DNA from: Anaerolineales bacterium
GTDB lineage: Bacteria > Chloroflexota > Anaerolineae > Anaerolineales > UBA11579
Reading direction: 5' to 3'
Assembly (NCBI GenBank): GCA_019637805.1
Contig: JAHBVB010000001.1
Coordinates: forward strand, 447,875 to 511,874
Length of the DNA: 64,000 bases
The position numbers and the translations under genes are program-made. Positions 33,517-45,337 of the stretch are shown here, one piece after another. Positions within the stretch are counted from its first letter, which is position 1, and the number at the start of each line of letters is the position of its first letter. Below the pieces are notes generated by a model. That model had not been told where the DNA came from and ran no database searches. It worked only from the letters and a program-made list of their open reading frames with translations.

Positions 33517-33998
33517 TGACGATCGATCTCAATCTGCTGCCGCGCTGGCTGGAAGCCGAAGTGGAGCCGAAACACCTGGACCATATGAACCACATGAACG
33601 TGATGTGGTACACGCATTTTTTTGACAAGGCCATCTGGCACTGGTACGAGAGCTTTGACTTTGGCGCCTCCTATCACACGCAAAGCGGCTGGGGCAGCTT
33701 CGCCCTGGAGACGCACACCCGCTACCTGTCCGAGCTGCGCGTAGGCGACCGGCTGGGTGTGCACATCCGCATGCTGGCACGCAACGCCAAGCTGTTCCAC
33801 TACATCATGTACATGCAGCGCCTGAGCGATGGCGCGCTATCGGCGACCAGCGAGCTGCTGGGCATCCACATCGACATGTCCACCCGGCGCAGCGCCCCGC
33901 TGCCGGAGCATATCGTCGCTTATTTTGACGGCCTCATCGCCGAGCATGCCGCGCTGGCTTGGGATGCTGGGGCGAGCGGGGTGATCAAGATCGCTTAG
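33516..33998 (+). CDS. 4HBT-type acyl-CoA thioesterase
   Basis: 160 aa hot-dog fold: DHMNHMNVMWYTHFFDKA near the N-terminus is the 4-hydroxybenzoyl-CoA thioesterase/YbgC-type signature, followed by THTRYLSELRVGDRLGVHIR strands. It hydrolyses acyl-CoA or acyl-carrier thioesters. Its place beside an acyl-CoA-forming dehydrogenase is suggestive. The last codons overlap the convergent gene by 4 nt. Confidence 0.8.
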   Translation: MTIDLNLLPRWLEAEVEPKHLDHMNHMNVMWYTHFFDKAIWHWYESFDFGASYHTQSGWGSFALETHTRYLSELRVGDRLGVHIRMLARNAKLFHYIMYMQRLSDGALSATSELLGIHIDMSTRRSAPLPEHIVAYFDGLIAEHAALAWDAGASGVIKIA

Positions 33999-34513
33999 GC
34001 GGACTGCCTCTCCAGCCGCACTACCTTATCCGGCACCCAGCGGCCCTCGTCGTTCTGGCGTTTGCTGTAGTGCGCCAGCCAGGCGCCCCGCGGGCGGTTG
34101 TCCTTCAGCGGGTCCAGGCCGCGGAGGCCGGCGGCCTCCAGCGTCTCCGGCCAGCAGGTTACGCCAAATTTCTTGAAGCTGCCGCCCTTTATCACCCAAC
34201 GCGGGTGCTCGCCGCCCGCGGCCAGCTTGATGCTGTCGACTTCGAAGGATTTTGTCGGCGGGGTGGCCTCGCTGCCAGTGGCAGCCGGGCTGCCGTTGCC
34301 ATGGATTGCGGGCGTAGTGTTGCTACGCAACACATCAGAATTTGCTTCGCAAACTCTATTCCAGCCGCGCTCGGCCAGCAGAGCCACGAAAGCCTCGACG
34401 CGCTGGATGAACTCCAGGTCGCTTTGTTCTTCAGTTTGGCGTAAGGTGAACTGGTCTTTGCCCCCGCTCGGGCCGTAAAAATAGCCATTGAATGACGCGC
34501 GTGCTTCGTGCAT
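33995..34513 (-). CDS. Hypothetical protein with inserted hairpin-coded segment
   Basis: 172 aa. The N-terminal part (FNGYFYGPSGGKDQFTLRQ, then FIQRVEAFVALLAERGWNRV) and the C-terminal part (GGSFKKFGVTCWPETLEAAG ... RGAWLAHYSKRQNDEGRW) look folded and conserved. Between them a low-complexity stretch of about 35 residues (SNTTPAIHGNGSPAATGSE) is encoded by four tight hairpins. No family is recognised. Possibly a nucleic-acid-associated protein, given its basic C-terminus, but this is only a guess. Confidence 0.6.
   Translation of the reverse strand: MHEARASFNGYFYGPSGGKDQFTLRQTEEQSDLEFIQRVEAFVALLAERGWNRVCEANSDVLRSNTTPAIHGNGSPAATGSEATPPTKSFEVDSIKLAAGGEHPRWVIKGGSFKKFGVTCWPETLEAAGLRGLDPLKDNRPRGAWLAHYSKRQNDEGRWVPDKVVRLERQSA
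34271..34353. repeat. Cluster of four short hairpins inside a coding region
   Basis: GCTGCC-AGT-GGCAGC (34271-34285), GGCAGC-CGG-GCTGCC (34280-34294), GTGTTGC-TAC-GCAACAC (34317-34333), TTTGC-TTC-GCAAA (34341-34353). All have 3-nt loops and the first two overlap. The frame stays open through them. Confidence 0.7.
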
Positions 34514-45296: not shown

Positions 45297-45337
45297 AGTC
45301 AAAACCTTTGGCTTTGACTCGCGGTGCGAAGCACCGC
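45297..45337 (-). other. Intergenic hairpins between rplK and rplA
   Basis: GCGGTGC-GAA-GCACCGC (45321-45337) and AGTCAAA/TTTGACT (45297-45303, 45313-45319) in the 124-nt gap. They may be mRNA processing or L1-binding structures; no T run follows. Confidence 0.4.

Follow-up and report, generated by a model that had tools for sequence, protein, structure and literature searches.

A 45-bp segment of a protein-coding gene in an Anaerolineales bacterium belongs, with a probability that we put at about 85%, to a family of small palindromic repeats that is non-autonomous and dispersed in this genus of uncultured Chloroflexota. The segment occupies positions 34316-34360 of the window, the 64,000-nucleotide stretch of DNA analyzed here. 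It forms two hairpins and is read in frame, and the orthologous site of a close relative is empty. The genome carrying the window is designated G000, and related genomes are G001-G010 and G012. The features concerned are as follows.

33995-34513, minus strand: host gene for a conserved 172-residue protein, function unassigned, in which a variable linker joins two conserved parts
34259-34348, minus strand: predicted disordered linker, codons 56-85 (pLDDT below 50), enclosing the overlapping hairpins together with the larger part of the insert
34316-34360, minus strand: 45-bp in-frame insert (NRVCEANSDVLRSNT), a double-hairpin palindromic element found in G000 and G010 but not G003, matched by model R1 (below)
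34337-34357, minus strand: element hairpin 1, AGAGTTTGC-GAA-GCAAATTCT, 9 bp with one G.T and a GNA loop
34317-34333, minus strand: element hairpin 2, GTGTTGC-GTA-GCAACAC, 7 bp with a GNA loop
34271-34285, no strand assigned: perfect hairpin GCTGCC-AGT-GGCAGC in a Gly/Ser/Pro/Ala stretch, where G003 keeps the protein but not the palindrome
34280-34294, no strand assigned: perfect hairpin GGCAGC-CGG-GCTGCC overlapping the previous one, a stem-6 pair of this kind arising in 0.6% of recodings

The insert, its empty site and the neighboring hairpins

Orthologues of the host gene were found in 12 of 61 searched genomes, G000 included. The protein belongs to no family in Pfam or NCBIfam, the gene has no match in a phage collection, leaving a phage origin unsupported, and a fold search returned nothing at E<=0.001. 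Several single-stranded DNA-binding proteins (DdrB, Rim1, SSB and PriB) were among its non-significant structural hits, which are weak and were not used. The linker runs from GW (51) to SFEVDS (89). An AlphaFold2 model from 11 sequences had a mean pLDDT of 78.6 with residues 56-85 below 50, and the greater part of the insert thus lies in a linker predicted to be disordered. The orthologue in G004 (L013) has a 60-residue linker whose DNA resembles another repeat, with CTTCGCTCGGG and GGCTCGCTCGGGACAGGC.

Comparison of 13 host-gene sequences from 12 genomes identified 15 codons, immediately following GW, that are common to G000 and G010 and missing from the other 11 sequences; the first-pass annotation had proposed an insert of about 35 residues, which is too long. 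In G000 the 45 bp stand between GGCTGG and ACGCCC, whereas in G003, which has approximately 84% DNA identity, GGTTGG is joined directly to ACGCCG, an empty orthologous site with clean flanks. The segment is likewise absent from ten sequences of nine other genomes. No target-site duplication is visible at 34316-34360. Hairpin 1 in G010 is AGGGTTTGC-GAA-GCAAACTCT, again with one G.T but at another pair than in G000, as expected of decay after one insertion, and hairpin 2 has decayed in G010. Pairwise identities of three genes disagree as to whether G000 is nearer to G010 or to G003, so that the segment may have been lost from G003. Folded as RNA or as DNA, the 45 nt gave two neighboring hairpins, with a z-score of about -4.2.

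The first-pass annotation had reported four hairpins with 3-nt loops in the host gene, and this description is exact, with perfect stems at 34271-34353. The hairpins at 34271-34285 and 34280-34294 overlap and each have a stem of 6, that at 34317-34333 has a stem of 7, and that at 34341-34353 has a perfect stem of 5, which extends to the 9-bp stem at 34337-34357 when one G.T is allowed. The 464 kb of G000 examined, which comprised the window and 20 stretches of 20 kb from the 2.34 Mb genome, contained no further group of four hairpins like these (stem of at least 5, within 95 nt); 20 dinucleotide shuffles of this sample gave five such groups altogether. Direct copies of the 116-bp segment were sought in G000 and none but the segment itself was found. 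The four hairpins are two different things, the pair in the insert and the overlapping pair.

That all four are a chance product of codon usage in a Gly/Ala/Ser-rich linker is extremely improbable. When the linker was recoded for the same protein with genome codon usage, four such hairpins appeared in 0 of 20,000 sequences. At least two stem-6 hairpins arose in 0.005% of recodings of the insert part, a test that counted stem-6 pairs, the insert itself having one stem-7 and one stem-5 hairpin. The insert is also matched by the independently built model R1, and chance is refuted for 34317-34353. For 34271-34294 alone chance is plausible, as recoding the Gly/Ser/Pro/Ala part produced at least two stem-6 hairpins in 0.6% of cases. 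This pair consists of mutually complementary codons (GGC AGC and GCT GCC) within GNGSPAATGS, downstream of the insert, and G003 encodes the corresponding GSGSPAASGE with different codons. At this spot G003 has an unlike 9-bp hairpin and G010 has neither. The earlier annotation held that conservation of the protein without that of the DNA would speak against an insertion, and this is the pattern seen at 34271-34294, with GSPAA(T/S)G retained by G003 in other codons. Its proposal of an in-frame palindromic insertion, not explained by protein constraint, is therefore well supported for 34317-34333 and 34341-34353, given the empty site in G003 and the dispersed repeat family, but not for 34271-34294, a pair that may be an old remnant or a chance product.

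A dispersed double-hairpin family and its coding copies

The hairpin core TTGCGWAGCAA, counted in 12 genomes from the genus and family, has 113 occurrences against 27 for a mirrored control; its arms often vary and it is often paired. A covariance model, R1, was built from eight double-hairpin copies at other loci of G001, G002, G005, G008 and G009, with G000 and G010 held out. The insert tops the 17 R1 matches in G000 (37.6 bits, E 1.1e-7), scores E 3e-9 on the window alone, and its orthologous segment in G010 is matched at E 3.2e-4, all R1 E-values being rough. At E<=0.5 among 28 genomes, each of the 11 genus genomes gave 10-66 matches, 13 other genomes of the family gave 0-25, and four genomes of other families gave 5, 1, 0 and 3. 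At E<=1e-3 there were 97 matches in the 11 genus genomes, eight of them training copies, versus six in the other 17. Six genomes are richer, with 10-17 each (G001, G002, G005, G007, G008 and G009, five of which supplied training copies), and five are sparse (G000, two; G010, two; G003, three; G004, two; G006, one). The repeat is therefore found at many unlinked places, though with only two such matches in G000 itself. A scan of 80 genomes of the class at E<=1e-3 with stricter filters returned two matches in G000 and one each in two of the 79 others. The narrow pattern TTGCGNAGCAA..TGCGNAGCA was found in 8 of 298 class genomes, G000 included, versus 4 for a mirrored control, and alone is thus no evidence for a class-wide family. 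One further hairpin lies in the window.

45320-45337, plus strand: lone hairpin with the family's core, GCGGTGC-GAA-GCACCGC, R1 E 0.0073, outside open reading frames of at least 90 codons

This hairpin recurs in a stretch of G010 (L082).

Copies of the repeat have hairpin 1, ..GGAGTTTGC-GNA-GCAAACTCC.., and hairpin 2, CGCGCTGC-GNA-GCAGCGC, either directly joined or separated by C or AA, with an A after hairpin 2; variants occur. Flanks and frames were analyzed in 33 of 53 matches, chosen by eye; twins at orthologous or neighboring sites were left out, as were shortened matches and all but two of the training copies. The base 3' of hairpin 2 is A in 31 of the 33, and C stands at +7 in 27 and at +8 in 22. 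Stem bases are steadier than tips, and in several copies nested hairpins replace the tip. All six frames are open in 21 of the 33 copies; in 200 base shuffles this number averaged 5.4 and never exceeded 11.

Intrinsic terminators were considered and rejected, as none of the elements examined has a T run at its end; among the strong intergenic hairpins of G000, many are A/T-flanked and terminator-shaped, with other loops. An Rfam scan of eight loci gave no match to the element, the only hits above the gathering score being SAM riboswitches elsewhere in two loci. These riboswitches lie near intergenic copies in two genomes (L122, 633-735; L118, 2265-2365). The genus has another dispersed palindrome, CGTCATTGCGAG...GTAC-TTGCGNAGCAA-GT.GCGACGAAGCAATC (L016, L020, L050 and L062, around position 1500), with the same GNA core hairpin and a CGTC start. 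One locus of G008 (L188, G008:C1:544197-544504) contains several TTGCGAAGCAA hairpins approximately 52 bp apart in an apparent array, and copies in L165, L170, L172, L198 and L200 have a longer common tail, ..CCCCCACACCC..AACGAACAACATCT, and may ride in larger repeats.

In-frame copies are present in at least three unrelated genes that have orthologues lacking the copy, namely the host gene, a 2-oxoacid dehydrogenase E2 acyltransferase gene and a radical SAM gene. The copies in G005, G007, G009 and G012 described here were outside the R1 training set. In G007 the linker of E2 (Biotin_lipoyl, E3_binding and 2-oxoacid_dh domains) carries a copy at E 9.2e-10, and the E2 linker of G005 carries one with a nested tip at E 1.1e-4. 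In G009 a radical SAM/PqqD-domain protein contains a copy (E 3.1e-7) in which about 12 residues are replaced by 14, rather than simply added to; the G008 protein, 97% identical, lacks it. The same place in the radical SAM gene of G012, a member of another genus, holds an unlike double hairpin (E 3.6e-4), and 10 of 12 aligned orthologues have no copy. The G005 orthologue of the host gene likewise has a different double hairpin in its linker (E 4.8e-5; chance 0.0008 given the protein). The linkers of the three genes have thus been struck in at least two lineages each. Coding copies were checked through orthologues in these three genes, and no overall count is given as labels from crude open reading frames include long spurious ones.

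Origin of the repeat and candidate mobilizers

The reading that we prefer, a dispersed non-autonomous repeat, would take the following course. The repeat comprises two hairpins in fixed order, each typically GC-closed around a GNA triloop. In an ancestor common to G000 and G010, one copy would have inserted into the host protein's linker, between its conserved parts. Tolerance of the insertion would be due to the lack of stop codons in most frames, a length of 45 bp that is a multiple of three and the disordered linker, with point changes since then producing the observed decay. Movement of copies would probably involve folded single-stranded DNA and an enzyme acting in trans.

An origin in place, without any mobile repeat, is unlikely. 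The d(GCGAAGC) mini-hairpin is extraordinarily stable, and nascent DNA might fold on such a d(GCGNAGC) hairpin, prime itself and copy the preceding bases. Such fold-back copying is consistent with arms that vary by locus, with nested hairpins that replace tips while the bases stay, and with an excess of long stems at GCGNAGC cores over those at the mirror core CGANGCG (20 of 810 versus 2 of 474 at stems of at least 6 in the G000 sample; 12 of 688 versus 1 of 415 at stems of at least 8 in a sample of relatives). However, the arms GGAGTTTGC and CGCGCTGC recur, in one order, in many copies at unlinked sites, as do the 3' A and the CC at +7/+8; local copying would not produce this sharing, and the empty site of G003 has neither hairpin arm. 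A further reading is unlikely: the repeat may be a self-renewing palindrome whose stem bases and GNA triloop are kept while its arms are rewritten or nested, the linker copies being a recurrent source of in-frame linkers at fixed gene positions.

It is very unlikely that the segment is a GTAG-type REP mobilized by a RAYT of this genus. Size, hairpin pairing and occasional location in open reading frames do agree with REPs, and a Y1_Tnp (PF01797) gene is present in 11 of the 13 genomes searched, among them all 8 of good quality, and is single-copy in 10 of the 11. GTAG or its complement CTAC, however, lies within 10 nt on the 5' side of only 2 of the 33 copies and on the 3' side of none. The Y1 gene also codes for a fused receiver-like domain, and in seven aligned proteins of the genus, as judged by eye, there is no HUH pair and Phe stands for the expected Tyr. 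In 11 regions, each 5 kb around a Y1_Tnp gene, R1 scored no better than E 0.0076, and no active HUH-Tyr transposase gene flanked by repeat copies was found in these regions. RAYT mobilization is thus mostly refuted by the absent GTAG foot, the dead-looking Y1 gene and the lack of strong copies nearby; judged from its sequence, the conserved Y1_Tnp gene looks catalytically dead and is unlikely to be the mobilizer. Its product (L205, 1486-2836, with orthologues L206-L213) is a conserved protein of about 450 residues whose N-terminus is receiver-like and whose Y1_Tnp domain has seemingly lost its catalytic residues; Response_reg scores below the cut-off in G012. The gene lies just upstream of what we take to be DNA polymerase I in G001, G002, G005, G007, G008 and G012.

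Relation to known palindromic elements

Two consecutive hairpins are also the structure of mitochondrial double-hairpin elements, which are thought to be mobile, although those belong to organelle genomes and are likened here by description only. Rickettsia palindromic elements (RPEs) are short palindromes found in frame in unrelated genes and also outside genes (PMC10969869, PMC3733652), and the present family shares both habits. The likeness to Rickettsia elements drawn in the first-pass annotation accordingly holds for behavior and does not by itself make the family an RPE. RPEs are described as about 150 bp long with a conserved encoded peptide (PMC10969869), whereas this family measures approximately 40-45 bp, has two hairpins and, unlike RPEs, is read in different frames (VCEANS in G000, QFAQQT in G007 and EFAEQT in G009).

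REPs of the GTAG and CGTC super-families are dispersed hairpins of 20-40 bp, often paired and mostly intergenic. Some lie in open reading frames, and a given gene sometimes carries an intragenic REP at roughly matching positions in different species (PMC3733652, which also names a GTAG-23 family of T. roseum). The present family resembles them in its short dispersed hairpins, often in pairs and some inside open reading frames, but lacks a GTAG/CGTC foot (CGTC/GACG in 1 of 33 copies 5' and 0 of 33 3') and differs in its two unlike hairpins arranged head-to-tail, its conserved stem bases with swapped tips and its 3' A-N5-CC tail. With RAYT/REPtron systems (PMC6006769) it shares a Y1-transposase-domain gene conserved in the genus, but here that gene looks catalytically dead and copies do not clearly flank it.

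In-frame intragenic palindromic repeats are thus already known, and a literature search found no description of this repeat family in Anaerolineae, so that it is apparently undescribed. Rickettsia and some REP-rich bacteria are the best-known sources of in-frame palindromic insertions. Here such insertions occur in free-living Chloroflexota, where full and empty sites in related genomes make it possible to follow directly how copies insert, decay and have their tips replaced. In three genes, with at least two lineages per gene, small palindromes seed the disordered linkers of conserved proteins.
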